Below are positions 29,331-55,812 of a DNA stretch of 64,000 bases, in pieces. The notes beneath the pieces are model-generated. The model did no database searches. It had not been told where the DNA came from and saw only the letters and a program-made list of their open reading frames with translations. A program made the position numbers and the translations under genes. The stretch is taken from contig JAKZAP010000021.1 in the NCBI GenBank assembly GCA_023053575.1, positions 19,716,212 to 19,780,211 on the forward strand, in the 5' to 3' direction. Position 1 is the first letter of the stretch, and each line of letters starts with the position of its first letter. The stretch is from Branchinecta lynchi. Lineage: Eukaryota > Arthropoda > Branchiopoda > Anostraca > Branchinectidae.

Positions 29331-30146
29331 CATCGCCGGACCTCGCACCATGGATTGTAGCAAGTGTAGAAGGACGCTGTTTACAGCTGATCAGCTTTTT
29401 TTCTACCACCAATCAGAAAAGCAAATTCACCTGTCCTTGAAGCCTGAACTGCGGGCAACTATAGAAAACTGTTCACTTATTATAGTTGCGGACAAACCGA
29501 AAAGTATTGTTGCAAACTGTAAATTTTGTGGTTTTAAACTGGGAAAAGTACTGCCTTTTGGCCCGAGTGGCACCAGTTTCATTGCATTCGGTACCGAGAA
29601 GGTCCAACTCTGTGGGAGACAGCTGGGGGGAAAGGACCAGTGGAGAGACTACCTCGGACTGTATAATGTCGAACAGAGGAACAATGAATCTTTCTTCGGC
29701 TTCGCAAAAGTCGCTCCTCAAGCTCCTGTCAGAACAGAGACTACAGTTGCATCGATTCGCTTTGCCTCGCGATCGAGTCTCAACGATTTCAGCTGGTCCT
29801 TGCCACATTCTTCAAAATATCCCCGAGATTACCAAATCACTGCCTACGTGGAGGCATTACTGCGAGACCTGATCGTCGTCATACCAACAGGAGCTGGTAA
29901 GACGCTCATTGCCGCGATGCTCCTAGCCAAAATGCGGGAGCTGAACCCAAGACTTCTCGGTGTGTTTGTTGTCGATCGAGTGCCCTTAGTCTTTCAGCAG
30001 GCTGATGCCATTGCCCTGGATACTCCCTTAAGAGTTTGCCGGCTCTGCGGGGAGAATCGCTCCCCCGCCACCTTGCGCGGGTTGCAGGACGGAAGTTTTG
30101 ATGCACTAGTGGCGACGGCTGGAGTTCTTAAAGAGGCCTTGAAAAG
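29331..30146 (+). CDS. Fusion gene exon 1: zinc domain and helicase motifs Q, I, Ia, Ib
   Basis: Residues 1-265. C3xxC6 and C57xxC60-G form two zinc pairs about 50 residues apart, with an LFTADQL stretch after the first and a G-x-x-L-G after the second. That layout resembles the RIG-I/DRH C-terminal domain and, more distantly, Yippee/CULT zinc folds. The helicase follows: YPRDYQITAYVEALL (Q-like), PTGAGKT at 179-185 (Walker A), VFVVDRVPLVFQQ (Ia) and ATAGVLKEAL (Ib). The exon ends at a GTAAGC donor in phase 2. The start codon lies 20 bp inside the exon. The frame stays open upstream as far as the acceptor, so an in-frame upstream extension is possible but not needed. Confidence 0.9.
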
Positions 30147-33100
30147 GTAAGCCAAATCTAACCTTCTTCCGTATCCGACGGTGGGACGATCCTCGTATAA
30201 TAATAATTATAATTATTTATGGGAAAAAGCCTAATGCGACCATACAACAGACGCCTGAAGCGCCAACAACGATTTATACCACTAAAAATTAAAACACAAA
30301 CTATTTTCTTCTTTTCATTGCATCCAAAACGAAAAATACGACCTCATAAATTACGCTTTTATTTAAAGATACCAGGGAGGAGAACACCACCAACCGTCCC
30401 AACTACAGCCAATGAGGGTGTAAACAATCTTATTAGGAGTCCTCATTATATCAAACATCTGTAATAAAAATCTACCTATCTGTCTATTTATTTATCTTTA
30501 CTTATTCTTTATTTGTTTAATGATAAGTTTGAATATCCGGAATATAACTGAAGTATCGCTAGGGGATAGAGGAGGTGTGTGGGAATGGGGTTCAGTATTT
30601 TTGAGCAATTCATGGACTTCGAAAACTTGTGCAGTTTGCAGTTCGCCAGTAATTTTAATTATGGACTAAATGGTCTTGAAAATAGCCCGTCGTGTTAAAA
30701 GTAGAATCTGTCAGATAGCCTATTGTTGCTGTGGAAACAAAACAGTTGGGTTTACCCTTTGTCTTTTTCAGGAAGGACCTGTCAGTGTCCAACTTCTCTT
30801 GCATCGTCTTCGACGAATGCCACCACGCTTCTGGATCCCACCCCTATACTGAACTTCTTCAGATGATTCAGGGGATTCCTTCGTCCTCGCGACCTCGGAT
30901 ACTTGGACTCTCTGCTTCCCCTTTCCCCGCCTTAACCCCTTATAAGGCCCAGGACAGCCTGCGAACTTTTTTGGAAACCTATCGGCCCGCTGTCGTATTT
31001 CGTCCCGAAGCACCTCGCCTTGTCCAGCAACCTGACAAGTGGGAGATTATCGACAACTCCAACGACATCGACTCTTACATCAATATTGCCATTCGACTTT
31101 TCAACGAGCTCACGCAACAAGTCCCGAGCTTGGGTGGGAATCCAGTGATCCTCAACCTCTTTAACTCCAATGTGCTGAAAGGTCAGTTGAGAGCAGTCAG
31201 GAGTGGAGTGACGTATTTAAGTCAGACTGAGCAGAAACTGATAGATGACCTGATATTGGTTTTGATTTCGGTTGAAGTCGCCCCACAGATGGGGGTTAAG
31301 GAAGCAGTGAGTGTTCTTACTTCTGCCACAAATGGACGGATCAGAGATTTAGTAGACGCGTTTAGGAACTACGCCGACGCAGCCCCAAAACTGAAGCGCC
31401 TTGATGCATACTTGAGCCGCTGCGACACAAACTCACGCGTTTTGCTTTTTGTTAACACGAGAGAAATGGCCCGCCGACTTTTCCGATTCGCGCGGGACAA
31501 ATTTCCGCATTTGAATCCTGCGCGTGTCGTCGGACATGGCGGCCACGACGGGATGCAATGGGAGGAAGAACAAGTTGGATGTTTAGCCGACTTTGAGAAA
31601 GGTCACTGCAATCTGATTATCTGCACCTCTGTCCTTGAAGAAGGCTTAGACGTTCCCGAATGTGATCTGGTCATACGCTACTCAAGTGGAGTGTCTCTGA
31701 TTAAGTATATCCAGACCCGTGGAAGGGCAAGGCGCTCTGAGAGTCAGTTCGTCGTGTTCCTCGATTCCCGCGAGCGAAGTCGAATTCAGCAGTTGGAGAT
31801 AGAGGAGCGAATCATGGACGATATCCTGAGCAGCCACGCCCGCCAGGTTGGACTTCCGTCCAATCAGGCCACGGATATTATTGATGGGCTCTTGAAATCG
31901 AAGCCAGAGTTGAAACAGAAAGGTGGAAAGAAGAGAGGGGGAGCTGTGCAGGACACGTGCGCTCTGAAGCTAGTGGTGGCGGATCTCGAAACCATCGATG
32001 CGGATTTTCAGGTAATTTTCTATCTCCTCTTTAGTCACGTGCGTCTCCTTGACGATTTTTTTTCTGCTTAAATCAAGATTTTACTTTTGCTCAATTCAGT
32101 TCAGTTTATTTTAAAAAATTCCCTCAGTTTATTTTCAAAAAATTCCCTCATGGACGAAGCCGAACATTGAATTTTTTCGTCATGTACATCCTCATCACGT
32201 AACTCAACAATTAAAAACAATTATAACTAGTGTTATTCATTTGGTCAATCTACATGCGTCTCTCAGTAAAACTCATAAGTAAAACCTTTCTTCATACGCA
32301 ACATGTCAACTAATCTAAACAATATCATCAATTGTAATATCTACAATTCAATAACAACACACACAGAAATACGGTTAATTTATGAGGTGTTTTGGAATGC
32401 CCGTTGAAAAGATCTGTGAACGATGGAACAAAACTTTCTTTATATCGGTCGTGGGAACAGGGTAGTGACTGCAACTTTGGAACAGGCTCGGCAGTAGCTC
32501 GTGCCGGTCTTGGCCTAACAGGTAGATATTCATGGGGAAGAATTTCTCTAGACCAGGACTCTCCAACGATGTTGTTGCTAGTTCAACTTTAGCGTAAGAT
32601 TATTAAAGAAGAGAAAAAGGTATTTGTTGTGGCTCAGCTGTGTGTAGCGGTAGAGAAACTTTAAGGGTATACGTGGGTATACAATGGTAGCGCGGGTGGT
32701 GTGAGGCGGTTCTTTACCTTCGGTGGTAGGGCTATATACAACACAGGTTGATTTATGAATGAATGTTTATTTTACCTTTAAACGGTGTTACTATTCCACT
32801 CCTAAATACTAAGCCTGATATCGCTTACTAATCATAATCCTCCCTGTATGTCGACATCTGCTCTTCAGTTGCACTTTAACTGGAGTCGTACTAACACTGG
32901 ATACTGTAGACTAAGACGAAGACTAACACCGACGAGTAGATAACACTGACGAAAAACTCACTTACGAGTAACTAACTATCGAAGAACTAACTCTTGAAGA
33001 ACTCACTTTCGAAGAACTAACCTTTGCTAGTCCCAACTCCTGGCTTTTATAACTTTCCGTGATCCCGGTTAGGGAATTAGCGATCTTGCTAAATACTTGC

Positions 33101-36100
33101 AATCTTGTTAAAGCTTGTGCCAATATTGCTTACTCTGAGTCTGAATATATTTAGCGATCTTGCTAGATATTTGCAAGATTGCTAACATTTGCAATCTTGC
33201 TAAAACTTGTGCCAATATTGTTTACTCTGAGTCTGAAGATATTTAGCGATCTTGCTAAATCCGCGAGACCATAAATCTAGCACTCGTCATCTAAAGCTTA
33301 ATCGTGGGGACGTATACCAAGGGAGTTGTGACTTGCTGATCATCACAAGTGTTACGAACATCCGTTACATGTGGCCCCATCCAATTTCGCTGTCATTCGA
33401 TAGATAGATAGATAGATAGAAAGTTTATTTTAAAAATCGACTATCGTGGTTATAAACCAAATTTGCGATTATTGTCAAACAGACAGAAAAAACTACAATA
33501 TATGTGTAAAATGTCAGTACGCTTAAAAATTCAAACTTCGTTAAAATATTTCACGAACTCGGGAACAAAACTTTTTGCATATCTAGCGTGTTTTGTAGGT
33601 ACGGGACAGAGTTGGGAACCTTAGAACTTACCACTCGTTCTGGTCGACTTCTAACATTTTGATAGGGGGGAGGGAGGACTTGGGAGTGGAGAGGATGAGA
33701 TTCCATGGCTGAACCGAAGCCAGTGCTTAGCTCCTTTCTGCGCTCCTGCAGTGTTTTTAGGTTAAAATGTTTTAAAAGGTATGAGTAGGGAAGCTTTGGT
33801 CCACTATGAATAATAAGAAGAGCCCGCTTCTGTATTCTTTCTAGTTTATCTCTTTGTTCCTGCGATAATGAAAAATGCCAAACGGGTGCTGCGTATTCCA
33901 GGGTGGGTCTGATGAAAGAAGTATAAACTCGTAGTAGGTGACACTGGGGTATTTTCATTTTTGAAAGGAGTTTTAAGTTTTGTATTTCTGCATTGGCTCG
34001 TTTCAGCATGTCCTGACAGTGGGTTTCCCATTTTAGATCTGGGGTAATGGTAACACCCAGTAGCTTAATTTTCTCTGCCTTCCTTTTTTTCGGTATTTCT
34101 TCTTTGAAGGCAGGATTTGATTTTATGAAAGAAATAGTTAAAACCGCTGTTTTCGCGAAGTTAACTTTCATATCGCTATTCTGTGCCTCGTCTGCCACCT
34201 CTTGGATTATTAGCTTAGCATTACTCATTTGGGAACGATGACAGATTTCAACAATGCTCAAGTCGTCTACATACTTCCAACGGTTTTCCTCATCTACTGC
34301 AATATCATTTATCATTACTAAGAAAAGGAGAGGACCCAAAAGAGTCCCCTGAGTCACTCCACAGAAAAGCTTTTTCTTCCGAAAAAACACCCTTATACTT
34401 GGTTTTTTGTTTTCTTTTTTGGAGGAATCCAACAATAATTTTGATCAAGAAGGGGCTTACATTTAGTTTAATTAGCTTTTCCACGAGCATTTTGTGGTTA
34501 ATTAAGTCGAACCCTTTAGTAAAGTCAATTGCGATTAAATTTATCCATTTTTCTGTATCATCTAGGTTCCTTAAAATACAATCAATTAAACTTACCAGGT
34601 AATGGGATGTAGACGACTTCGGTCTGTTGCCGTATTGTCGTGGATCTAATTTACCAAGAATTTCTCCTTTTAACCACTTGGCTACAAACCATTCGTACAC
34701 CTTGCTGAAAGTGGGTGTAAGTGTGATGGGTCGGACCGAGTCGAAGCCTATTGGAGAGTCTTTTTTGGGGATTGGTGTCACGTAACCTACCTTCCACGTG
34801 TCAGGGTAAATTCCAGTCTCGGAGATTGCGTTAAATATATTCGTGAGCGGTAAAGCCAGTTTATCGGGGAAAGCCTTGATCAGTTCTATTGGAATGTCCA
34901 CTGGAGTTCTACTATTTCTTTTTAGTTTGCTCAATTTTTGCCAAGTGTTCATTTATTTGGGATGCAGTTATTTCGTCCGGTTGATCGAGATGGAAGTCTA
35001 TTGCATTCTCTGTTTTGCCACAGAGCCGTTTGACACCCTTATACTACTGATTGGGTTTCGACTGAAAAAGGTCATTCAGTTTCCTGCGATAGTAATTCTT
35101 GGCAGCGTTACGAGTTTTGTTTCTGATTTTGTTAGCTAGCGATCGTGCTTCTTGAAACTGCCCTTCCTTAACCAATTTTATTCTGTGTCTGATAAGTCCT
35201 TTCATTTCTGCGTTTATGTACGGCCGATCAGTGCAAACACATTTGAAAGATTTTTCCGGGAAACAGTTCTGATACTGGGTAATTAGTTGGCTTTGGAACA
35301 TTTCAGTTTTTTTTATTAATATCTTGAGCCTCGTCCAGTTCAGTCCAGGCTGTCTCGCTTAGCCATGTGCCGAATTTGAGAAGCCCTGAGTCTGTGATGG
35401 GCCTGTGAGTTACTTTTTCAACTTCATATTTTACTTTGAATGATGGGAGAGGGTTATACTCAATTGCCAGGTGATAGCTCTTACCTAATGACGGCAACGA
35501 TCGGGGCTCATCGTAAAACTCGTAAAACAGGTTTGAACATATAACATCGGGGTGGGTTTCTCCATGTGTCGTTGGGAAGTGCACAACCTGCTTTAATTGT
35601 TGGCTTTTTAACAAATACTGTAAATTTAATTCATTTTTGTCACCCATCATCATAATTCCTGCGTGTGGATATTTTGTAGTAATGTAATCGATGCTGAGCT
35701 GTAATTTTTCCACGAAGGTTCGCCGCGCTTCTGCCTTTTGCCCAGGCGAGTAGTAAAACACGCATAATATTAGTTCCCAACCAAGGTGTCAACACGTGTC
35801 ATCTAGGCAATAAATTTAGGTTATTGTCGGTAGATGGCGTGTGTTTCTTATCGTCATTGCGACCTACTTTGTTGCCTGGATGATGCTAATCCGCCATCAG
35901 CATCATCATGTCGGTATCTATTGGTCATCAACCTACCATCTTGTTGACAAAGACAAAGGAGATTTTTTTTATTCAGCTGAGAAGTATAGGTACATTTATT
36001 TTATTGAGAGAGAAAGAGAAGAGTGCCTCTGAGCCCTAGGCTACCAAGGACATTCCTAGCCCTCGTTTGTTGATTGGTTCTGAGAGTGGAAACTAAGGTC

Positions 36101-39100
36101 AGGCCCGCCCGTCTTCAGAAGAAAATCACGCTATCCACAAGGTCCCAGTGACCCTTATTCACGACCTAGCCTTATCCACCACCCTTGAAACCATATCAGT
36201 ATCAAATAAAATGTGCTTGCTTTCATTCTAGAGCCGTATCGTTGAAGAGCTTGAGAAGTCCCAGCTTCTCAAGGTCCGAAAGGTCCTGGTACTTGAGACC
36301 TCTGAACTGAGTGGGACTATTTTCTCTCCTGCCACAACTATTTCACTGATGGTCAGCGCGAGGTCTTACACAAAAGGATTCCCAGCTGACATTTCCTACC
36401 AGCAGCTTTGTGAGACGTGGACCTTCAGTCTGAGAGGCCATGCCGAAGCGAAGGTAGGAGAAATATATTTAAAACAAGACCAAAGGCTTCAGTGGGATCC
36501 CAAAGACAAACATAACGAAAGAAATAGAAAACCGTGATTTTCGGGGTTTTTTGTTGATCAGCTAATTATCCCTCTAGGATGATGTGCGAGGGATAAATAT
36601 AAATTCGGATATTTCGGTTGCACTTCCGGCAAACCGTCCTCAGCGAAAAACAAAACAAAACTAAATCATAAAATCCACCACAATCACAACAGGAGAACGA
36701 TGCGGAACCAACAGACAATAAGACGAGATGTAGCTAAAACCAGAAGAAAATGGTGCGGATGCAGATAAAAATAAAATAACGAAAGATAAAATGTGCGTGT
36801 TAAAAATGTATATGTACAAATCTGTGATTATTTACAATTCTGAGCTCTGTGTGTATTTACAATTTACCATCCGTCTGGGAAAGCGCAGAAGCTTTCACCC
36901 AGAAAACGGCCCACTCGAAAAATCCATTATACGTTGACCACTTTTGATAAAATCTTCCACAAAAAAGACAAACGATTTATTGGACTTGTATTCATCTGGA
37001 CTATAGGGGCTTGTAGATTCCAGTCTTCATCAGGATCTGTGGGCATATTATGTTTCCCTAACCAACCACTTAAAGTTTAACTGAAAAGGGGAAACTTAAA
37101 GAAGCTTGAAAACCTGGCGAAAATGCGTTACTTCGTTGCTACGCTGTTTACGAATAGTCATTTTCAAGTAGTAGTATTTCCTTGTCTGATTTGTATGCTA
37201 TGTGCGCTTTATGTGTTAAATGCTTGACGAAAACGATTTACGAAAAATAACTGTTCGATCAGTGAGCTACCTTCAGTAAGCTGATCACTGGCCACTGAAA
37301 CGCCGCTTATGTCTTGAGATTCAATTTTTCAGCGTCTTAGTAGAAATTTGCGCTGTGAGGACGACCGTAGATATATTGAACGTCATTCTAGAGTAAAAAG
37401 TGAAACAAAAAATCCTTAACACAATCAAAAAAATGCAGTGTATTCAGTTAAATGATGCAAAACGGTTTGAGAGGTTATGTGGAAGTAAAGGTTGAAGAAT
37501 TTACTCAGAAAGGGTGGGGAAGGGGTAGACACTAGGGTGGAAAAGTACATTCACTGATCAAAAAAGGGGACATTTTATTTGAGGGAGCTCGGTCCACATC
37601 TGACGAGCTCTGCTAGAAGTACCAAATGCTCTAGACCCGCGCAAACAAAAACTCATAATTATCTGGGAGAAGTGGCAATAGTGTGCATTAATGCAAAAGA
37701 GTATTGAGACTATAGCATGAAATTAATCGAAAAAGCCGTCACTGCACACACGCGTCGTCCGCCTAGCAAAATCGGTCACTATGCCCGCTTTTTCTGATGT
37801 TCCTCCACCCATAGCTTCGCACAGACACCCTTCACTGAACCCGCCCGTTAGTTCTCCTACCAAACCCGTCACCATGCCCAGTTTTCCAAAATTTTCGGAC
37901 ACCCTTCATTGACTCGTCAAAATCCGTCACAGCGTCAAACCTTTAGTTTCCCTCCCGTCAGTCCTCCCAACCTTTAGTGGTTCGTCCATGAACCTACTCA
38001 AAAAATTCAAGTACCTACTTAAAAAATTCAAGTACCTACTTAAAAAAAATCAAGTACCTACTTTAAAACTTCAAGTATATACTTAAAATACTCAAGTAAA
38101 TCTTATAATGAAAAATTCTTCCTAAATAAATGGATGAAAAGGCTCCAATCAAAGTCTATGATTTTAGTGAAAAGAAGCCTCCCGGTCAGTTGACACGTCG
38201 CCATGGGAAATATTTACATTACGCGGCGTTTACACGTACAGGAAAACTTGAACAGAATCCGATATTGATGACAAGATCATGTTGACACTCGGAGGGAAAA
38301 AAGTAAATTCTTCAAGCCAGAAGATCTGACAAAAAGAAATTCACTAGCTAATAAAGAAAAATATTTTGAGAGCATTGATGACATCAGTACTGAATACTGA
38401 TGACTGCTGCTCTCAAAAGATTGCTAGACTTTTTTGTTTAGTCTTTTTACCAGCGGTGCCGACGAGATCCCGTTCAAGTAGACTGGAATTCCTTTCATCA
38501 TGAAAGGATTCTCGTCCCGCTAGACTTTCTTCCTAGTCGTCTTCACGAACGGAATCCTTTCGAGTCGACCGGAATTCCTTTCCACTCGACGGGATTTCTT
38601 ATCCGTGTAAGCGCAACACTAGTGACTCCGAAAATGCAAGGAAGGCAAACCTATTGCTGAATGCCAGGTAGGTGGTGGAAAGACGTGGTTGTTTTTTCGA
38701 GGATTTACTGGATTTTTGCCTGTTAAACGTCCATTTTCTTCATTTTAGGTCTGGTCTCAACTTGACAAGCTACCCAGAGCCAGCGATCACTACCAAGTCT
38801 TGTGGAAAATTTCCGGGTTATCATTTGGCAGTTTTTGCGACCGCAGAACCTTCGAGGAGTCTGCAACTGTAAACGACGACGCACTACAGATTCAGTTGCA
38901 GTTCGTGAACAACAAGAGCCTCGAGCTACACTTCGTGGGACCAGGTTACACCCGGAAAATGATCATACCCTTTACTAGTATCTTCGAGTTCGCACTTATT
39001 GACTGGACAGTTGTTACCCTCTTCTTACCAATCATAAGTGTACCGTCGCTTCTTACCGTTGGTGATGCCCCGGAGTACATAAACTTGAAGTACCGAAGTG

Positions 39101-48100: not shown

Positions 48101-51100
48101 TTGCACAAAAGCAACTGAATACGTGCGGTTATACTAATTTGACCAGACTGTGACGTTCGTGATTTTTGTCATGACAAATCGTTATTGTATCGATTATGAA
48201 GTCGAGATTTTAAGTCCTGACTATCATTATTAAGAATCAGACAAAAGTCACGATTTATTATTCATGATTTTAAGGTCAATTTGCGGATTTTCGAAATGTC
48301 ATGATTTTAGAAAGGACAATACAGGTTACCAAGAAAGTCACTTTCATTTGTTACGAATCATGACATGTCATGATTCAAGTTTTAAGGTTTTTTTTTTAAG
48401 ATTTAACAAAGACAAGTCAAATCAGCAAGAAATCATGACTTTCGTTTACGAAGAATCATGACAAAAATCAAGACAGGAGTCATGACTTTTGTCATGAAAT
48501 ATCAAAATAGAGTCATGATTCAATTTTTGTGATTTTTATACTGATTTTCGAAATGTCATGATTTAAAAATGACAAAAATCATCACCAAGAAATCATGACT
48601 TTCGTTTATTAAGAATCACGACAAAAATCATGACATGTCAAAATGAAGTCATGATTCAAGTTTCATGATCTCATGTGTGATATTTTGTCGATTTTCTAAA
48701 TGTCATGATTTTAGAAATGATAAAGCAAATCACGAAAAAAGTCATGATTTTCTATATAAAGAGTCATGATAAATATCATGACAAAAATCATGATTTTTGT
48801 CATTAAAGTCATGAAAAAGTCATGACTATGTTGTTCACAAATCATGTACGTGTTGTTCATGATTTTTCTAGTTGTCATTTCGCTTAGTCATGACTTTCTA
48901 AATCATGATTTAGCCGTCCATAAATCATGACATTTAGTCACTAAGAAATCATGACAAAAATCATGACAAAAATCATGATTTTTGTCATGATTTTAATCAT
49001 GATATGTCATAATTGCTAATCATGATTTTTTTTTTATTTTTTGATGACGTTTTTTCCGTACGGGGTATTTCGTAAATATTGTGTTCCACTTCTAGCTGTA
49101 AGCTATTTGGATACTAAACTTGACTGATTGATTATTTTTTTATTCTTCCACATATTAAAAACTGAAACAGCATTAACTTATTTTAATATTAATTTCACAG
49201 CTTCGTTTTACTAGCACGAGTCTGAAGAGGATCCTTACCAAGAAGAGTCGAAATGTCGCTAGATTGAATATCAATTAGCCTTTCAGATATATTATTAATT
49301 TCACAACAAAAAGCTCGATCGAATGCTGAACACAACGGCTAAGGCACATGGATTGTGCATTTCAAATATTGTAAATTTCTCTTGTACCTTCCTCGACGTT
49401 ATAGGAATTCCCGTATAACTGCAACTTTTTTTGCCCTCTGACCCTTGTGCAAAGTTATCTTCAATTGCCTAGGACCTTCACGTTTCTGCACTTCGCCATT
49501 TCTCTGCGTTCCATCTAGGAAGAAGATTTATTAGACCCGATTAGCCCCATCTTTTTTTTAATATTTAATTTTTTATCTTGTGCATTTACTACATTATTGA
49601 AAGCTGCGTAAATAAAATTTCAAGTTCAAGTTCAATGGGTTTATTAACAATACAAAATAAATCATACATAAACAAAACACTCAGTCCATTTCTGGACGCC
49701 GAGAACCACAATCATTACATTTTAAACATAATACGCAGAGTGGTCACTGCTCCTGCTCTCAGACACAACCTTGCCTCTCAAAAAACAAAACAAAAAAACT
49801 AACCAATTACCTTCCTGCACCTTGCCCCTGCGGGAGCCACATATCATCATAATCACCCTTGATGCCAAAGGCAGTGGCGAAGAAGCAGTAAGGGTTTCTC
49901 CAAATTGCCGTTTCAGACAATGGGATACTTCGGACTGACGACAACACTAGGGATCCATGAGCTTGCACCGAGAATTCAGGAGTTTGTTTTTGTACTAAAG
50001 GGGTAAGAAGTGCTCCGAACCTCTCTCCCCCTTGGTCTGTAAATTCGACAACTTGGTCTGTGGTTTCTTGGTTATTTAACACTGACCTGGTTAACACGTC
50101 ACTTGGCCACCGATTGCCATCTCTGTTGTCCTTGTGGGATGAATAAAAGTAAAATAAAACTTTCCTTTTAGTCACTGTAAGCGTTAGAGAGAGAGAGTGA
50201 GACTTTATTTTAAAAACGACTTTCACAGCGCGTGGCGCCGAATTAGCGCTTCACGTCAGGTAATTTATACACTTATCAGATAAAAACCGATCGTCAACGA
50301 AAGGCTGAGTCAACACAACAAAATAATACACAAATCACTGGTTAATAAGGTTTACAAACGCAGGTATGAAACTCTTCCTGTATCTCTCGTGGATTGGTGG
50401 GAGAGGTTGAAGGGTGGGGACTTTCTGGGAGTTAGGTCTTTGAGGTCGGGATCTTAAAGGTTGAAAAGGCGGGGGGAATAAATCTTGGAAACGCGGATTT
50501 GTCATGGCTTTATTGCCAAACCGGGTACACAGGAGGGTTCTTCTCTCCGATAGAGTTGTGAGCTGGAAGTGCTTCAGAAGGAAGTGATATGGGAGTTTAC
50601 CTTGACCATGAATAATTCTTAATGCTCGCTTCTGGACTGACTCTATTGAATTAGATTGAGAAACAGTTAGACCAAAATGCCAAACCTGACAACAATATTC
50701 AAGAATAGGGCGGATAAAACTTGTATAAATTCTTAAAAGCTGGATTTTAGGGCAAGAAAATTTGGAGAAAAATTTAAGCGTAGAAAGCGCCAAATTAGCT
50801 TGCTTTGTGATGTTAGCGACGTGGGCTTCCCACTTCAGATCGTTGGAGATAGTGATACCGAGGAGCTTGCACTGCTGGACAGACATCTCCGGAGGGATTG
50901 GTTGCTTGAACGAAGGTGTGCTCTTCAAGAAAGTATAACAAAACAAAGATGAGACGAAAAAGGAAAAAAAGGGACACAATTAGTATACAGCACATCGCAA
51001 AACAGCCGTATACGTGTCCTGGAGACTTCAAAAGTAATTATATGTTTCATTATAGGTGTTTTGTTAGTTGTCGATGACGACCACCTCACCAACCTAGCTG

Positions 51101-54100
51101 GTCAGCGCTGCTCGATTACCTACCGAAAATCCATGCTGAAGTTTGAGAATGACGATCACACCCTCGGTATCGTTTCGACGTCGCAGTTTAACCCGGTGAA
51201 GCTCAATCGTGAAATTATAACACTACTAGACGCCATACATCCCGATGTCGGTCCTGTGCTACACGAGCTACTAGACGAGACGCTTTACAAGGCCGTTCAG
51301 ATGATGGCGAGGACGGAGGAAGCGGTAGCGGGACTTAAAGAGATTCTCCCGAGGAGGTGGCCGATTCGGCAGATTTTGAGGTCCGGATTCAACCTGATCG
51401 AGGAACCGTTCTGGCAGCGGATTTTAAAGGGAGGGTTCGAGTTTGTGGTGGAAGACTTGCGGAGGCGAACCCGGATTCCGGTGTCCCTTGGTGGGTTGGT
51501 GCTTGGTGTCGCCGACCCCTTTGGCGAATTGAGGGATGGTGAAATTTTTCTTCAAGTGCAGAAGAATGGCGAGGAGCCGTTCGTTGTCAAAGGACCGGTG
51601 AGATTTATTTTCTTAAAGTAAACTCACTTCAGGTTCGAATGCATCACTGGTATTAGTGTATGAAAATTATTTACATTTTATAATCTAATAAGTACAGTAG
51701 AGGTATGCTTATTTGAACAATTGTTTAACTGCTCCACTACCTTGGCTTTCTTACTCACATACAAAAAAAACTAAAATGAAAAGAAAAATAACAAACTTGA
51801 TGTCGGCTAACAGCCATTTCAGGGTTATCCTGGGGCAAACTTAAAGTGAAAATTTAATTAACTTTCTTTGATATTGAACTTACCAAAAAGTTCCTTCTGC
51901 TTTTGGAGGCATCTGCAGGTTCTGACCGTCATCTTATAGTGCGTTCCTCGTGGCAAACTTTTTAATTTATGAAAATAAAACCAGCTATCAGTAAAGTCAC
52001 TATCAGCCATGAATTAGCAAAATATTCTAAAAATGACAAAAGCGTGAATGGTCGTTACAAGTATTTATAGTAAACAATGCCTTGTTTGGGTTTTGGTTTT
52101 TTCTTCGGTGATTGTTCACTGTTAGCCGATTTCATATAAGCATACATCTACCGTATTACTTTGGTTAGTTGTTGCGGGATCCTAAAAAGAGCGGGGGTGG
52201 GCAGGTGCCTGCTGTGCCTACAATCAGCACAAGTCGAGGGTAAATGAATTCCGGTCGTGTTGCCAGCCTGTAATGATACAGAGAAACTTATGATGTTTTC
52301 TTCCGTAGTTAAAGAATCTTCTTTTATAGGTGATAATCTACCGCAACCCCTGCCTTTATCCGGGTGACGTACGTCGAGTTACAGCTGTTGACAAAGATTC
52401 CCTGCGCACCTACAAGAACGTAGTCCTTATGCCAGCAAGATCTGACTGTCGATATTCCCTGTCTGCGGCCTGCAGTGGTGGGGATCTAGACGGGGATCTT
52501 TTCTCCGTTATCTGGGATCAGCGGCTCATCCCCACGCTTTCCTCCATACAACCCCCACTTGACTACGCTACCCTGGCAAAGGGCATGCCAGAAAATGAGG
52601 ACGTTTCCGCGCCAGAGGCGATACCAGATTTTTTTGTCAAATGTATGGTAAATGACACTCTTGGTAGGGTGGCCCATGTTCACTTAGCGTTGTGTGATCA
52701 GCTGGAAAAAGGAGCTACAGACCCCCTGGCGATGAAAATGGCGGAATCACAGTCGGTGGCTGTGGATTTTCCCAAGACAGGGATCGCCCCATCCGTCCCG
52801 AAAAAAGCACTGGAATTAGTGAGCGACAAAGGGTATCCTGATTTCATGGAGAAGAAGGAGTCTATATCCTACTATTCCCGGAAAGTAATAGGGGAGCTCT
52901 ACCGACGGACCTGCTCCTTCGCAGCGGAGATCACCTTCCCAGCCAGATTTGACCTCGATCCAGACTTGACCTGTCGGGGCTATCAAGCTTACCTTCCTTC
53001 CGCCCGAAAAGACTATGGCCTGTATTGCAAAGCCGTGCAGAAAATAATGTTTCAATTTGGCCTGCAAGAGGAGTTTGAGGTTATCCTCGGCCGGGCCGTA
53101 ACCTGGGACCCCTTGCTTCAGGCAGATGCTGGTAAGGCAACACTCATGATCCAGGATGCATATTATGCGTTGAAGAAAGAATTCACTGCCCGATTCAAGG
53201 ACATGGCTCTGAAAGACGAAGCGTCAAAGAAAGCCAAAGCCTATGCGTGGTACCACGTAGCGTATAATGCCCCCGAGTCGGGAACTACCCCACGCCTACT
53301 CAGTTTCCCCTGGCTTTTGGCAGATATCCTCTGTAGCATCAAGGGGTCTAGCCCCAACAATTCTCCTAGTATGGAGACATCCGCATACAGGGACATTGGA
53401 AGGGGTGCGAGAGCTTACTTTTTAGAGAATTCAGGATGTTTGAATCAGCTGATATCTCAGCGGACTTCAGCCGTGAGGCAGATCAGCTCGGCTATTCAGC
53501 GCGCTCGCACGCAAGGACTGACAGTTCAGCCGTACGGATCTGTCTCGATTTTCCTGTGTGACAGTGCTTCAGATGTCGATCTTGCAATAGTACCAGGGGC
53601 TGCTAGCTCGGTCGCAAACTGCACTCCGATTATTCAAGCCCGCCACTATCTACAAACTCTAGTCTCTCCAGCAATCGACCAAGAAGTTGAAATGAAACGA
53701 GAGATCTTGAATGGAGCCCATCCACACATCAAGTGTCATGTGAGAGATGGGGATAGCCTGATAAGCGTGGACTTGTCCATGAACAAAGTCGGCGTAACCA
53801 AAACCCGGATAATACATACCCTATATACCCACTACCCCGCTCTTCTACCGTGCCTTTGGTTCATCGTTCGTTGGTCACGGCTCGTTGGCATTGTGAAGGA
53901 TAACCGGATGCCGAACTCCTTAGCGCATGTTCCCACTGGTGACTTCTATGGGCTTGTTTTGAACCTGATTGGCCAGGAGATGAATCAGAATGCGCCAATC
54001 AGAGTGCAGTGTTCGCTCGTCGAGTTTTTTGATTCGCTAGTCGACAAGGTGGGGAATTTGGCCGAAAACGATGACATCCATCTTGGACAGATGCTGGTAC

Positions 54101-55812
54101 GATTCTTTGAGAAAGCCTCTGCAATGAAAGGACCTCAGACCGTTAGATGGCACGATGATGATATACCAGACATTGTATTAAAAGACGACGTGGTACGCGA
54201 AGTCTCTCACTTATGCACCAATGCTCTTTACAGTCTCCTCGCCTCCCGTAATGCAGAGTTTCTCATCCGAAGCTTCCATAGCAGAAGCGACGAAAGCATG
54301 ACGGTCTCGCTCAAGCTGCCAATGTCTTTAAGCCGGATTATATCCGACTCCCTACCCTTTCACGCTAGTAGACTAGCATCCCTGACCAACGCAGAAGTCG
54401 AACTGAGGATTCAAGATGGCGACACTTCAACATGGCTTCGCGCCGAGGGAAGCCGGCCAGAGATTGTCAGATTGTACGATGAAATACAGAACATGGTATT
54501 CACCAGTAGGGCTGCATGTGTTGGCGTCGTTCGTACAAAAGCTGCTCGGTATTTCATGATGGGCTCAGAGCTGCTACTCGTAGCTGGTAGTAACTCTTCT
54601 TCTGCGCAGGTCGAGTTCACGCGGAGCAGAGGCCCCTTTCAAATAAGACACGCTCTGCTGGACCGCTCAGTGATCAAGCTCTGTTCGGTAAAGTACCTGG
54701 GAGACTGGCGGTTAGTTGCACTGGAGAAATTTGCGGCGCATGTCTTCCGGCAGCTTTCTCAGTTTCCTGTGACGAATACGGCACTGCTGAAGACTTTAGA
54801 TATTACGACTCGCTTCGGTGGGTTCTACTTGATACACGTCTCTTCGTGTCTACCCGAGACCCGTCGAACGCTTTCAATCGACGAGCTATCGGCTGTTATT
54901 GAAAAGTCGAGGACTGGTCGGAAGAATTTTATGCGAAGTGAGTATGGTGGTGAGAAGGAAGAGGACAGAGAAGCTTCAGATGAGCTCACAACCCTCAAGC
55001 CGAGCGAGCACAACCCTTTGACGCAACCTGCTACCCAGTCGATTTCCTGTAAGAAGAAAAAGAAAGGGCTGGGGTCAAACTTCTGCGTCGGTCTAAACAT
55101 GGAGAGCAAGGCAGAGCCGACAACGCTGTCGAAAGTGGTGCGAGTTTACGCTGAAGCATTAGCTAAGGCTGGGTTCCGACCTGTGGAGAAAGAGCCATCT
55201 TACGTGTACCAGTGTTGCATTGCGCTTTCGCGAGCGTACGAGGCGCGGGTGTACATGAACCAGGGTTTGGAAGTTATCGGTTGCAAGGAGCGCGATTTAC
55301 ATTGGGCCGATACCTACATCTTACATGGCGAGGAGTCGGCAGGACAGGCGGACGTCATGGAAAAGATCGACTGCCGAATCGGTCTGATTTCCGCGGAACC
55401 AGTCCAGCCTGGATCAACGATCCACAAAATGCTCTTTCCTACTGGTTTGCTCACCCCTCCAATCCGGCTAGAAGAAGGGAATGTAAGGATTGCAGACCAT
55501 ATGAAGCGTAGCGGTAGGGAGAAGATCCACTACGTACACCACAAGCAGAGTGGTGCTCGCTTTGAATTGTCATCACCAGATTACAACCTTAGTGTGGGTG
55601 GAACCGTCTCCTTAGGTGTCGTCCACGAAGGAAAGGATTTGAAGCTCGAAATGCCGTTCTACAAGCTCACTTTGCATTTTGATATGGAGCCTTTCAAAAA
55701 GGCATTGAAGGAGTCGTGCCGCACCCAGCTTAGAAAGCTGTGTCAGGATGTCTTCTTTGTTTCGCTGAAAGTGAAAGAGGGGCTTGAAGCCGCCGCCCAG
55801 TCCCGCGTTTGA
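29350..55812 (+). CDS. RIG-I-like helicase / RNA-dependent RNA polymerase / nucleotidyltransferase fusion (six coding exons)
   Basis: Joining 29350-30146, 30772-32011, 36232-36453, 38749-40165, 51056-51597 and 52330-55812 gives one frame of 2566 codons with GT-AG introns and compatible phases (2, 0, 0, 1, 0). Domains in order: two-CxxC zinc domain (about 1-95), DECH helicase (about 160-620), linker and RdRP N-lobe (about 680-1230), RdRP catalytic part (about 1230-1740, DLDGD at 1458-1462), nucleotidyltransferase with PAP-associated domain (about 1790-2010), KH-like segment (about 2063-2138), unassigned C-terminus with a Lys cluster near 2314. Known family roles: helicases of this type bind dsRNA, RDR enzymes copy RNA into dsRNA for small-RNA production, and Cid12/RDE-3-like transferases tail RNA in the same complexes. 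Inference: a self-contained siRNA amplification enzyme. The ACCATGG start context is good. Missing micro-exons cannot be excluded. Confidence 0.9.
30147..30771 (+). other. Fusion gene intron 1 (0.6 kb)
   Basis: GTAAGC donor and TTTGTCTTTTTCAG acceptor. The interior holds a retroelement-like 3' end (TAATAAAAATC followed by CTATCTGTCTATTTATTT near 30463-30495). A short plus-strand frame at about 30219-30460 is not supported as coding. Confidence 0.85.
30772..32011 (+). CDS. Fusion gene exon 2: helicase motifs II to VI and insertion domain
   Basis: Residues 266-679. FDECHHASG at 279-287 is the DECH box diagnostic of Dicer/RIG-I-type helicases. ILGLSASPFP is motif III. About 150 residues then form the Hel2i-like insertion. 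RVLLFVNTREMARRL is motif IV, IICTSVLEEGLDVPECD motif V, and YIQTRGRARR (Q580 to R587) motif VI with both arginines. All catalytic residues expected for an active ATPase are present. The exon ends with a Lys-rich linker and a GTAATT donor in phase 0. Confidence 0.92.
32012..36231 (+). other. Fusion gene intron 2 (4.2 kb)
   Basis: GTAATT donor and TTTCATTCTAG acceptor. Contents: simple AT-rich DNA to about 33000; two copies of an about 110-bp unit (TTAGCGATCTTGCTAAAT, TTGCAATCTTGCTAAAACTT) at 33060-33260; an antisense LINE at 33403-35775; featureless sequence to the acceptor. Confidence 0.85.
33403..35775 (-). mobile_element. Antisense non-LTR retrotransposon (CR1/Jockey-like), 5'-truncated and frameshifted
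   Basis: On the minus strand the order is endonuclease remnant (GDKNELN; SYHLAIEY in place of the usual SDH), linker, then reverse transcriptase: IPIELIKAFPDKLA, YVTPIPKKD, VRPITLTPTFSKVYE, IAIDFTKGFDLINH (motif A), GVTQGTLLGPLLFL (motif B), WKYVDDLSIV (catalytic YxDD, motif C), KLLGVTITPDLKWE, FIRPTLEYAAPVWH and a C-terminal SRPERVVSSKVPN. At least three frame breaks and the missing 5' part make it inactive. The 3' end has an AATAAA-type signal and a (TCTA)n tail at 33403-33420. It sits antisense in the host intron. Confidence 0.88.
36232..36453 (+). CDS. Fusion gene exon 3: linker between helicase and polymerase
   Basis: Residues 680-753, 74 codons, phase 0 on both sides, so it can be skipped without breaking the frame. 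The peptide starts SRIVEELEKSQLLKVRKVL and ends CETWTFSLRGHAEAK. I recognise no domain. Its position matches where Dicer-type proteins carry a small dsRNA-binding fold (DUF283) and where RDR proteins begin their N-terminal region. The exon is supported by flanking AG/GT sites and by frame continuity with exons 2 and 4. It could be a cassette exon. Confidence 0.75.
36472..36506 (-). mobile_element. Solo right terminus of the GGGATCCC-ended element
   Basis: AACAAGACCAAAGGCTTCAG followed by TGGGATCCCAAAG matches the right end of the copies at 27924 and, inverted, at 15390. It begins only about 20 bp after the exon 3 donor, so the insertion landed at the very edge of the exon without destroying the splice site. 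No element body remains. Confidence 0.6.
37985..38100. repeat. Tandem repeat, about 25-bp units
   Basis: CAAGTACCTACTTAAAAAAT is repeated with small variations four to five times. It is local and non-coding. Confidence 0.8.
38749..40165 (+). CDS. Fusion gene exon 4: RdRP N-terminal lobe
   Basis: Residues 754-1226. The first 280 residues are weakly conserved in appearance (KISGLSFGSF, FTSIFEFALIDW), as usual for RDR N-termini. From about residue 1040 the RDR signature begins: RLITTPTRDVYYPP, SSRLFRKFGDFEFAIVGFRDE, GLLLNGRRFRFFCASASQLR, KLTDGVGLIR and FQIRIAGIKG. These correspond to the TPT...PP, NRxLRxF...V.F.DE and DGxGxIS blocks of cellular RNA-dependent RNA polymerases. The exon ends in phase 1 at GTAAGA, splitting the glycine codon of the conserved RxxGxKG motif. 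Antisense frames here are shadows. Confidence 0.9.
40343..41345 (+). repeat. ATCATGAT-rich array, left end with CCGTACGGAAAAA
   Basis: It starts CCCGTACGGAAAAACTCATT and is then saturated with AAATCATGATTT-like words and GCCGTCGTGATCTTA blocks at irregular 20-40 bp spacing. The start is repeated at 43843, and its inverse TTTTTTCCGTACGGGG closes the series at about 49067. No coding frame is present. It looks like a dispersed satellite or a giant non-autonomous element. Confidence 0.7.
41400..41720. repeat. Inverted-repeat segment shared with 47740-47890
   Basis: CAGTTCTCGCATGCTTCTCG, GTGGGCCTGCACGTGGTGGA and neighbouring bases reappear inverted near 47800-47885 (TCCTTCACCACGTG, AAGCATGCGAGAACTG). 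It separates two ATCATGAT-rich tracts, suggesting the tracts and this segment belong to one inverted structure spanning most of the intron. Confidence 0.6.
41721..42235 (+). repeat. ATCATGAT-rich array, second tract
   Basis: It repeats the same order of blocks as 40380-41000 (ATCATGATTTACC, CAATAGTCATAATCG, TTAAGAGATCCCTTCTGTGA, GCCGTCGTGATCTTAC), so it is a direct copy of the first tract about 1.35 kb further on. Confidence 0.65.
42540..43790 (+). repeat. Direct duplication, copy 1, with an internal tandem repeat
   Basis: Landmarks TGGCCGGAATTAGTACAAAT, GAACCCGCAATTCTCAGGTG, CATTACCTTGTCGGTCAGTT and GAGAGGGATTTCGAAAACTA recur in the same order at 44500-45375. Within this copy, a unit of about 264 bp starting GAATGGTTTACACACTGAAG is tandemly duplicated (about 43249 and 43513). 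Confidence 0.75.
43843..44460 (+). repeat. ATCATGAT-rich array, third tract
   Basis: It begins TGTACGGAAAAACTCATT and follows 40345-40930 almost block for block. Together with the duplication at 44500 it shows that the unit 'ATCATGAT array plus GGCCGGAATTAGT segment' was copied as a whole. Confidence 0.7.
44500..45375 (+). repeat. Direct duplication, copy 2
   Basis: Second copy of 42540-43280: TTGGCCGGAATTAGTACAAA, CTTGTCGGTCAGTTGTCAGC and GGCGTTGGTGCTAATTTTAT appear in the same order, with small indels. It lacks the second 264-bp tandem unit. Confidence 0.75.
45385..46100. mobile_element. GGGATCCC-ended minisatellite element, copy 5, internally inverted
   Basis: The first part runs forward (GGTGTGGGGAAAC, GGGGTAAGAAACCATGCTGA, several units). 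From about 45950 the sequence switches to the reverse orientation (GAGCCCATCTACGAACTTGA, GACGGACGGACAACTTTTGC) and ends ACGTTTTGAGATCCCAATAA. Two opposite copies have therefore joined or one has partly inverted, making a hairpin-capable structure. Confidence 0.6.
46285..46595 (-). repeat. Duplicated repeat carrying hammerhead-core-like motifs
   Basis: Two copies (about 46280-46370 and 46495-46590) of CAGCGATATTTCGGCCCTTC followed by TTGGCAAGGGT and CTCGTCAGGCTGTCAATCTT. On the minus strand each reads CTGACGAG, a CCCTT/AAGGG hairpin with a six-base loop, then CGAAA. The same block is present on the plus strand at 7135-7215 and, more diverged, at 49215-49262. Confidence 0.65.
47073..47280. mobile_element. 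hAT-like MITE, 208 bp
   Basis: CAGAGATGGGCGAATCCGAT at the left is inverted at the right as ATCGGTTTCGCCCATCTCTG (one mismatch over 20). A CAGRGATGGGC start is typical of hAT-superfamily termini. An exact 8-bp duplication is not evident. It does not encode a protein. Confidence 0.7.
48130..49067 (-). repeat. ATCATGAT-rich array, fourth tract with inverted terminus
   Basis: The densest tract: ATGACAAAAATCATGA and ATCATGATTTTTGTCATG words follow one another almost without spacers. It ends TTTTTTCCGTACGGGG, the inverse of the start at 40343. TCATGA is self-complementary, so single strands could pair in many registers. Confidence 0.7.
49222..49253 (+). other. Hammerhead-core-like motif (CTGAAGAG, hairpin, CGAAA)
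   Basis: CTGAAGAG satisfies CUGANGA, a CCTT...AAGAG hairpin follows, then CGAAA. It is the most diverged of the four copies in the window. Stems I and III are not demonstrable by eye. Confidence 0.3.
49618..50180 (-). mobile_element. Antisense retroelement 3' region with (TTGAAC)n tail and a 139-codon frame
   Basis: The plus-strand left edge is a TTCAAG repeat (49618-49634), that is, a simple-repeat 3' tail on the minus strand, with AATAAA-type signals nearby. Upstream on the minus strand an open frame (50226 to 49807) includes GNRWPSDVLTRSV and SETAIWRNPYCFFATAFG and ends GQGAGR. I recognise no domain. It may be the end of a LINE protein or a captured host fragment. It abuts the next LINE fragment. 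Confidence 0.4.
50185..50940 (-). mobile_element. 5'-truncated LINE, C-terminal RT region, same family as 33403-35775
   Basis: The minus-strand frame starts its homology near LKSTPSFKQPIPPE and continues KLLGITISNDLKWEAHV, IYTSFIRPILEYCCQVWH, ALRIIHGQGKLPYHFL and FPPPFQPLRSRPQRP. Each block aligns with the LINE in intron 2. The 3' tail here is (AG)n at 50185-50198 instead of (TCTA)n. The insertion ends about 115 bp before the exon 5 acceptor. Confidence 0.85.
51056..51597 (+). CDS. Fusion gene exon 5: RdRP core after the RxxGxKG motif
   Basis: Residues 1226-1406. The sequence resumes VLLVVDDDHLTNLAGQ, then ITYRKSMLKFENDDHTLGIV. This matches the conserved KG-V-L...D..L.G...-RPSM-KF block that follows GxKG in RDR polymerases, with YRKSM in place of the usual RPSM. 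It continues with helical sequence (ITLLDAIHPDVGPVLHELL) and ends VQKNGEEPFVVKGP in phase 0 at a GTGAGA donor. The remaining open frame past the donor reads into the intron and is not coding. Confidence 0.9.
51598..52329 (+). other. Fusion gene intron 5 (0.7 kb)
   Basis: GTGAGA donor and TCTTCTTTTATAG acceptor joining VVKGP to VIIYRNPCLYPGD, the unbroken RDR motif. No repeat or ORF of note. Confidence 0.88.
52330..55812 (+). CDS. Fusion gene exon 6: RdRP catalytic loop, nucleotidyltransferase, KH-like and C-terminal regions
   Basis: One open frame of 1160 codons (residues 1407-2566). IIYRNPCLYPGDVRRV and SGGDLDGDLFSVIWD give the RDR metal-binding loop (D1458, D1460, D1462; bases 52483-52497). 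LSFPWLLADILCSIKG near 1730 closes the polymerase. PYGSVSIFLCDSASDVDLAI carries G1809-S1810 and D1821/D1823, and ISVDL gives the third aspartate D1887, the full triad of the DNA polymerase-beta-like/PAP family. LGQMLVRFFEKA near 1991 is PAP-associated. Residues 2063-2138 (VSLKLPMSLSRIIS ... EIVRLYDEIQNM) have a KH-like pattern. CKKKKKG near 2313 could be a nuclear-localisation signal. The last 240 residues match nothing I know. The stop is TGA at 55810. Confidence 0.95.
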   Translation: MIIYRNPCLYPGDVRRVTAVDKDSLRTYKNVVLMPARSDCRYSLSAACSGGDLDGDLFSVIWDQRLIPTLSSIQPPLDYATLAKGMPENEDVSAPEAIPDFFVKCMVNDTLGRVAHVHLALCDQLEKGATDPLAMKMAESQSVAVDFPKTGIAPSVPKKALELVSDKGYPDFMEKKESISYYSRKVIGELYRRTCSFAAEITFPARFDLDPDLTCRGYQAYLPSARKDYGLYCKAVQKIMFQFGLQEEFEVILGRAVTWDPLLQADAGKATLMIQDAYYALKKEFTARFKDMALKDEASKKAKAYAWYHVAYNAPESGTTPRLLSFPWLLADILCSIKGSSPNNSPSMETSAYRDIGRGARAYFLENSGCLNQLISQRTSAVRQISSAIQRARTQGLTVQPYGSVSIFLCDSASDVDLAIVPGAASSVANCTPIIQARHYLQTLVSPAIDQEVEMKREILNGAHPHIKCHVRDGDSLISVDLSMNKVGVTKTRIIHTLYTHYPALLPCLWFIVRWSRLVGIVKDNRMPNSLAHVPTGDFYGLVLNLIGQEMNQNAPIRVQCSLVEFFDSLVDKVGNLAENDDIHLGQMLVRFFEKASAMKGPQTVRWHDDDIPDIVLKDDVVREVSHLCTNALYSLLASRNAEFLIRSFHSRSDESMTVSLKLPMSLSRIISDSLPFHASRLASLTNAEVELRIQDGDTSTWLRAEGSRPEIVRLYDEIQNMVFTSRAACVGVVRTKAARYFMMGSELLLVAGSNSSSAQVEFTRSRGPFQIRHALLDRSVIKLCSVKYLGDWRLVALEKFAAHVFRQLSQFPVTNTALLKTLDITTRFGGFYLIHVSSCLPETRRTLSIDELSAVIEKSRTGRKNFMRSEYGGEKEEDREASDELTTLKPSEHNPLTQPATQSISCKKKKKGLGSNFCVGLNMESKAEPTTLSKVVRVYAEALAKAGFRPVEKEPSYVYQCCIALSRAYEARVYMNQGLEVIGCKERDLHWADTYILHGEESAGQADVMEKIDCRIGLISAEPVQPGSTIHKMLFPTGLLTPPIRLEEGNVRIADHMKRSGREKIHYVHHKQSGARFELSSPDYNLSVGGTVSLGVVHEGKDLKLEMPFYKLTLHFDMEPFKKALKESCRTQLRKLCQDVFFVSLKVKEGLEAAAQSRV

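Follow-up and report, generated by a model that had tools for sequence, protein, structure and literature searches.

A single predicted gene occupies positions 29350-55812 on the forward strand of the window, the 64,000-nucleotide stretch analysed here (C13:19716212-19780211 of the Branchinecta lynchi genome, which comprises 575.7 Mb in 216 contigs). Its six exons join into a coding sequence of 7701 nt, 2566 codons followed by a single terminal stop, and all five introns start with GT and end with AG on reading of the splice sites. Exon 1 (29350-30146) begins with the ATG, encodes residues 1-265 plus two bases of codon 266 and ends at the donor GTAAGC. Exon 2 (30772-32011) extends from the acceptor TTTTTCAG to residue 679 and the donor GTAATT, and exon 3 (36232-36453), bounded by AG and GT sites, encodes a linker (residues 680-753) without a Pfam match over cut-off. 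More linker and the first third of an RNA-dependent RNA polymerase (RdRP) are carried by exon 4 (38749-40165; residues 754-1225 and one base of codon 1226), and the middle of this domain, to residue 1406, by exon 5 (51056-51597). Exon 6 (52330-55812; residues 1407-2566 and the stop) alone holds, in 1160 codons, the end of the RdRP, a nucleotidyltransferase (NTase) and a C-terminal region. All exons, and the coding features given below, lie on the forward strand. A previous examination of the same DNA, the sequence-only reading, had proposed six exons in compatible phases giving 2566 codons, with junctions at 30146/30772, 32011/36232, 36453/38749 and 40165/51056; the joined open frame and the GT-AG introns confirm the model and all four junctions. 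The fifth is placed here at 51597/52330, where exon 5 ends AAAGGACCG and is followed, at 51598, by the donor GTGAGA. Since an acceptor-like TTTATTTCCAG can be read just 5' of the ATG, a non-coding exon may be present upstream.

Intron 2 (32012-36231) contains antisense reverse transcriptase remains, with RVT_1 matches (3e-8 and 1.1e-10) in overlapping frames of the minus strand at 33551-34952, probably from a LINE. Intron 4 (40166-51055; 10,890 bases) is repeat-rich, with 22 direct-repeat families. At 40385-45569 it carries repeated blocks of about 60-300 nt, mostly 78-97% alike and spaced about 0.26, 1.35, 1.93 and 3.5 kb apart, which represent local duplication; diverged, partly palindromic, TCATGA-rich repeats lie at 48280-49013. 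A minus-strand open reading frame near its end (50335-50979) resembles the reverse transcriptase of intron 2 by eye and has no Pfam match. Elsewhere in the window, a 289-residue open reading frame at 62737-63606 (+) is rich in Gln, Tyr and Ser and includes a Cys-rich stretch (Metallothio_2 at 2.1e-4, just below cut-off); its product is possibly secreted or structural. The tRNA and Rfam scans returned no match.

The N-terminal domain (29350-29739) carries two cysteine pairs, C3xxC6 and C57xxC60, all four cysteines of which are invariant in 12 aligned rows, and is probably zinc-binding. Among 12 members, seven match Yippee-Mis18 and five match RIG-I_C-RD, all below Pfam cut-offs; in P0001 and P0003 (P numbers denote database proteins) the matches lie at the N-terminus, and the B. 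lynchi row has neither. Yippee/Mis18 and the RIG-I C-terminal domain are both beta-tent zinc folds. If the domain is of the RIG-I type, it would precede the helicase rather than follow it as in RIG-I. A profile search of the PDB with this domain gave nothing convincing, the best match (0.012) being to an unrelated stretch.

The helicase (29812-31849; residues ~155-625, split by intron 1) includes the Walker A motif PTGAGKT (29884-29904) and the motif II sequence DECHH (30812-30826). Pfam, run on the six exon reading frames separately, finds DEAD (5.9e-7) and ResIII (2.4e-6) in exon 1 and Helicase_C (3.7e-17) in exon 2. The best match to a solved structure, 5.5e-43 over residues 157-631, is to AncD1D2 (9mw6), which we take to be a reconstructed ancestral Dicer helicase. 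The next are Dicers, an archaeal helicase, LGP2, RIG-I and MDA5, and a family profile adds Dicer-related helicase entries. With DExH motifs and its nearest solved relatives in the Dicer/RIG-I/FANCM group, the domain is classified as a superfamily 2 helicase of the Dicer/RIG-I type, in keeping with the helicase tree. Pfam detects no RNase III domain in the B. lynchi protein or in the relatives scanned, so that the protein does not qualify as a Dicer. Target recognition had also been attributed to the chain, but no Argonaute-like domain is matched. The CxxC/CxxC N-terminus is the sole candidate nucleic-acid reader besides the helicase.

The RdRP (PF05183; 39619-52908, split by introns 4 and 5) scores over cut-off in each of exons 4, 5 and 6 (1.5e-30, 2.2e-28 and 9.7e-51) and includes the catalytic DLDGD (52483-52497), which places it among the eukaryotic cell-encoded RdRPs. 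Among solved structures its end matches plant RDR2 best (4.7e-47) and QDE-1 weakly (1.2e-7). The NTase palm follows at 53434-53820 (PF22600, MTPAP-like_central; 8.4e-9, 36.1 bits against a cut-off of 27). Its GS(x9)SDVD motif lies at 53536-53580, and the third Asp, in SVDLS, at codon 53770-53772; this GS..DxD..D arrangement is that of a terminal nucleotidyltransferase or non-canonical poly(A) polymerase palm. Pfam finds no PAP-associated domain in exon 6, and such a domain could be too divergent for it. The C-terminal region (54292-55809; residues 2061-2566) is matched to its end in Artemia, Effrenium, P0008 and P0010, and its ~500 residues belong to no Pfam family. Of the profiles that the sequence-only reading had named, RdRP, Helicase_C and the NTase palm (as PF22600) are thus recovered, but not the PAP-associated domain; the motifs it listed, PTGAGKT, DECHH, (L)SAS(P), QTRGRARR, CSGGDLDGD and GS...DVD...D, are all present in the joined translation. 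All 13 aligned rows conserve Walker A, DE(C/A)HH and DLDGD, and the 10 that reach the NTase also conserve GS..DxD with the third Asp. Three enzymatic activities are predicted from these family assignments and intact residues.

The claim that one gene specifies one chain with all three enzymes is borne out by the frame, the domains, the intact motifs and, decisively, by full-length homologues in Artemia and Effrenium; at the level of the gene model, the predicted single chain joining helicase, RdRP and NTase is real. The Artemia franciscana protein LOC136030359 (2568 aa) aligns in one local alignment over residues 1-2562 with 41.5% identity, and a protein of the dinoflagellate Effrenium voratum (2612 aa) over residues 1-2564 with 31.5%; in the RdRP piece, identity reaches 57% to Artemia and 45% to a dinoflagellate. 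The same domain order was to be sought in related genomes, and in these two it is found at full length. In the multiple alignment, columns are continuous over all five junctions, with small gaps near residues 679 and 753. Exon 3 is the weakest-conserved stretch (33% identity to Artemia over 69 columns, 10-25% to the four other relatives measured), and the linker after it is also poorly conserved (16-34%). Two or three adjoining genes could in principle have been falsely joined, since introns of 4.2 and 2.3 kb separate the helicase from the RdRP parts, another of 10.9 kb lies inside the RdRP, and retroelement remains and repeats occupy introns. However, the RdRP end, NTase and C-terminus share one exon, and single local alignments pass from helicase to RdRP in Artemia, Effrenium, P0003-P0008 and P0041. 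Separate helicase and RdRP genes are therefore unlikely given collinear full-length homologues in Artemia and a dinoflagellate, and a false join is, in our estimate, highly improbable. A scan for promoters and terminators between the helicase and RdRP parts gave counts close to those in shuffled sequence (16 against 14.8 and 4 against 5.7); its bacterial patterns are uninformative for a eukaryote. The retroelement remains in intron 2 might also suggest a decaying or non-functional gene, but 2566 stop-free codons, canonical splice sites and retained catalytic residues make this equally hard to credit.

The position of the locus 19.7 Mb into its contig and its kinship to Artemia speak against contamination. 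At least three RdRP matches occur genome-wide, all of them the RdRP exons of this gene (both of the 2 first-look candidates were scored), and no second RdRP gene was found in the genome scan, whose counts are lower bounds. Dicer and Argonaute loci are present: at least 14 Piwi-domain matches lie on four contigs, and Artemia Dicer-2 gives at least 15 matches, eight on C18 (39-65% identical), five on C14 (22-43%), one on the helicase of the gene described here and one on C9. Fragments of COX1 occur on C20, C10, C13, C19, C22 and other contigs; since 13 of 15 have an in-frame TGA, they are read as nuclear copies of animal mitochondrial DNA.

A full-length search with the joined protein returned 25 proteins: 13 (P0001-P0013) with helicase and RdRP, 11 (P0015-P0025) with Dicer domains, and one multidomain "Carpinus" entry. 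When the protein is divided into seven regions, 98% or more of every region is matched by P0001, P0002 and P0008. Alignments with P0003-P0006 extend to about residue 2289, P0010 has matches throughout (with 76% of the helicase covered), and most of the N-terminus and linker has no counterpart in P0011. P0007, P0009 and P0041 do not continue past the start of the NTase and are presumably partial models. They are uninformative on the NTase because they end early, as is P0061, which ends directly after the RdRP. Pfam evidence for an NTase exists in 9 of the 13 helicase-RdRP proteins (seven precomputed; P0008 at 5.5e-4 and P0010 at 2.2e-4, below cut-off), and none is found by Pfam in P0012 and P0013. 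In the eukprot protein P0011 (2551 aa), weak ankyrin and IQ matches replace the CxxC N-terminus; P0010 (eukprot, 3213 aa) shows a sub-threshold double-stranded RNA-binding motif 5' of the helicase.

Searching again with the RdRP core of Artemia adds, among the best 120 of 1300 matches, at least three more Artemia entries, a protein of the flatworm Macrostomum lignano (1486 aa) and at least 23 proteins of unnamed eukaryotes, 10 of these 23 being annotated with PF22600. Plants, fungi, a ciliate, an alga and more unnamed eukaryotes follow further down the same 120, and no abrupt drop in score marks the transition (172 to 163 bits). The Artemia entries of the family are P0001, P0026, P0027 and P0028; the neighbouring numbers of LOC136030359 and LOC136030361, and the equal length (54142518) of the contig given for each, suggest a tandem pair. 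In the A1 profile search over proteins, none of the 8000 candidates scored reached E<=0.001, probably because the search words were drawn from the first 500 residues, which are poorly conserved. A viral origin was considered and set aside: the A1 scan of viral contigs gave 22 pattern stretches, none of them a relative.

Phylogenies of both enzymes delimit the family. An RdRP tree was built from 38 rows, of which 28, B. lynchi included, make up the family; a branch supported at 100/100 separates them from the rest. B. lynchi and four Artemia rows group at 100/100, and Ostreobium, P0012 and P0061 come next. A quick RdRP tree of 47 rows gives the same picture, with 33 rows in the family (SH-aLRT 100). 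Both trees omit fragments (e.g. P0030, P0035-P0037, P0040, P0042, P0047), most of the plant and fungal matches among the best 120 of 1300, and nematode, tick, lancelet and cnidarian RdRPs; the smaller also omits the near copies P0004-P0006, P0049 and P0052, the unnamed P0056 and four plant or fungal rows of the larger. In a midpoint-rooted helicase tree of 28 rows, which includes Dicers but not RIG-I and from which 4 of 32 helicase hits were dropped as too short, 14 family rows group at 100/99, apart from the 11 Dicers, and, once Ostreobium, P0012 and P0061 are included, the resulting 17 rows group at 99/98. Three domains in order, forming one clade by RdRP and by helicase, define these proteins as a family.

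The NTase is a regular component of this family. GGDLDGD is present in 40 of 43 members examined, and in 26 the chain continues for at least 455 residues, a limit chosen after the data had been seen. In 25 of these 26, GS...DxD follows 332-405 residues after GGDLDGD, against 6 of 5200 shuffled tails. The exception, P0047, keeps this region but deviates in the GS motif. Artemia P0028, with 398 residues after GGDLDGD, fails the motif test, although its last part matches the beginning of the NTase profile (4.4e-5). NTase motifs are absent from 93 other RdRPs, P0061 and P0071 included, a control close to empty because none of these has a 455-residue tail and only seven have one of 370. The single-chain layout, as predicted from these proteins, is not a one-off but that of a conserved family, whose members come from crustaceans, a flatworm, dinoflagellates and unnamed eukaryotes. 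Judged from the same comparisons, the family is old and patchily distributed in eukaryotes, with a fixed domain order.

The ancestor of the family appears to have had the complete order already, since P0010, on the deepest-branching side of the family, has all parts. Traces of it may extend further. The family profile matches the outgroup in the later NTase part (Ostreobium P0013, 0.0028; P0012, 0.0058) and in the first C-terminal part (Ostreobium, 4.6e-6; P0012, 0.003; all E values for 146 sequences). These matches are collinear, at residues 1896-2318 of P0013 and 2339-2662 of P0012; the palm is unmatched in both proteins, neither of which has GS..DxD at the expected place. Such weak, ordered matches provide a lead that the layout may be older than the family, the NTase of the outgroup being degenerate or very divergent. 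On their account, a scheme in which helicase and RdRP joined first and the NTase later is no longer preferred.

Transfer of the crustacean gene from a dinoflagellate-like or other planktonic protist would fit the architecture shared with a dinoflagellate, the 45% identity of the RdRP piece and the position of plants, fungi and a ciliate outside the family. However, the trees do not group dinoflagellates with crustaceans, within a poorly resolved backbone, and the flatworm Macrostomum belongs to the family; on these two grounds, dinoflagellate-to-crustacean transfer was dropped as the main reading. In AU tests on the RdRP tree, neither the animals of the family as one clade (p-AU 0.284) nor a crustacean-dinoflagellate grouping (0.166) is rejected. 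Overall, we regard transfer as rather unlikely. Animal RdRPs fall into alpha, beta and gamma groups (PMC6396948). Bdelloid RdRPs raise a comparable question of retention versus transfer: clades of theirs that lie apart from the main animal groups are seen as ancestral retention or perhaps old transfer (PMC7943196).

It seems probable that the locus is a functional nuclear crustacean gene encoding a single-chain amplifier of RNA silencing that belongs to this old, patchy family. Tailing followed by copying, assisted by the helicase, is proposed as its role because tails in C. elegans recruit the RdRP and, in Tetrahymena, Rdr1 associates with Rdn1 and Rdn2, which we take to be nucleotidyltransferases; here the tailing enzyme and a Dicer-type helicase are, by the gene model, built into the polymerase. 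C. elegans RDE-3 puts pUG tails on cleaved target RNAs and these recruit RdRP (PMC12265681), and Tetrahymena Rdr1 co-purifies with Rdn1/Rdn2, plus Dcl2 at low stringency (PMC6562869). By analogy, the NTase would extend a fragment of the target RNA at its 3' end and hand the tailed end to the adjacent RdRP, which would copy the RNA into antisense or double-stranded RNA. The helicase, with ATP, might feed or clear the duplex, allowing repeated copying, and the product could then pass to the Dicers and Argonautes of the genome. The hand-over in cis, the order of steps and the role in small-RNA production are hypotheses by analogy only. The presence of an RdRP need not mean amplification, since injected dsRNA led to no amplification of small RNAs in Nematostella, which has four RdRPs (PMC12768352). 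A 2024 review describes the direct evidence that crustaceans amplify siRNAs as limited (PMC11592254), and the RdRP terms looked for are absent from an article on crustacean immunity (PMC5437397).

The same domains admit other uses. The NTase might tail the RdRP product, or unrelated RNAs, for decay, so that the fusion would serve quality control. PF22600 is a poly(A)-polymerase-like palm whose substrate and nucleotide are not fixed by sequence, and enzymes of this kind include uridylating ones. The tails that recruit RdRP to C. elegans target RNA (PMC12265681) argue against decay, which we consider unlikely. Alternatively, the helicase and N-terminus might read duplex RNA as a sensor, with the NTase making a signalling nucleotide and the RdRP amplifying the trigger. 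A helicase of Dicer/RIG-I type, the sub-threshold RIG-I C-terminal-domain matches and the Pol-beta type of the NTase would be in line with this; the NTase Pfam models matched across the scans are MTPAP-like_central, NTP_transf_2 or Polbeta, and none is of the OAS/cGAS type, which makes a sensor very improbable.

A role as silencing amplifier remains the preferred reading for the B. lynchi protein. More broadly, and more tentatively, the family may be an undescribed, cross-supergroup set of self-contained silencing machines, combining duplex reading by a Dicer/RIG-I-type module, tailing and copying in one chain. Its layout would be ancestral to the clade and perhaps older; scattered animals would have retained it since early in eukaryote history, or it would have moved between protists and aquatic animals. 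This wider proposal is possible but falls somewhat short of an even chance; if true, such passage would contradict purely vertical inheritance of cell-encoded RdRPs. A natural fusion is strong evidence that helicase, RdRP and tailing enzyme act on the same RNA in sequence, a joint action for which separate proteins have provided the argument in yeast, ciliates and worms. A single chain, its stoichiometry fixed, should also be more tractable than a multi-protein complex in biochemistry and cryo-EM, and in Artemia, a laboratory animal, RNAi amplification is testable directly. The predicted union of helicase, RdRP and NTase in one chain is conserved across distant eukaryotes and not unique among sequenced proteins. 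The sequence-only reading knew of no described protein with this architecture. For the literature this stands, no description of the three together having been found among the papers listed, which is weak evidence because most subscription papers lay outside the search; among sequenced proteins uniqueness does not hold, since database proteins share the architecture.

The closest counterpart is the uncharacterized LOC136030359 of Artemia, with all domains in the same order and homology over the full length. Artemia has at least three further entries among the best 120 of 1300 matches (LOC136030361, QYM36_007131 and QYM36_000314), whereas one gene is found in the B. lynchi genome, both counts being lower bounds. 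Effrenium voratum, from a distant eukaryotic lineage, has the same domain order but DEAH in place of DECH. Macrostomum BOX15_Mlig023635g1 (1486 aa) resembles the family in having an RdRP followed by an NTase region with GS...DID, although its NTase match is weak (0.0033, below cut-off) and its deposited model, which may be partial, has no helicase. The RdRP of Ostreobium quekettii (2571 aa), which belongs to the nearest outgroup by both RdRP and helicase trees, likewise joins helicase and RdRP but has no Pfam NTase and no palm match. Dictyostelium RrpA, RrpB and RrpC also unite a helicase and an RdRP domain in one protein (PMC3661229); they differ in that "nucleotidyl-" is absent from that article, a comparison made by description, with the Rrp sequences outside the trees.

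In other systems, the enzymes are coupled as separate chains. This applies to the S. pombe RDRC (Hrr1, Rdp1, Cid12), in which the RdRP is physically coupled to an NTase and a helicase, and to Tetrahymena Rdr1 with Rdn1/Rdn2, presumed to be its NTases. The B. lynchi gene model shares with RDRC an RdRP joined to helicase and NTase, here predicted in the same chain. However, Hrr1 is described as the S. pombe orthologue of ZNFX-1 (PMC9276528), and the B. lynchi helicase is not of that type. Of the proposal that the gene is a natural fusion of RDRC, the fusion therefore stands and the likeness to the yeast complex does not; a helicase of Dicer/RIG-I type is closer to C. elegans DRH-3 than to Hrr1. 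The C. elegans set of DRH-3, RRF-1/EGO-1 and RDE-3 brings a Dicer-related helicase, an RdRP and a tailing enzyme into one pathway and is a closer analogy than RDRC. The worm enzymes differ in being separate proteins, and MUT-16 is proposed to bring RdRP near RDE-3 (PMC12265681).
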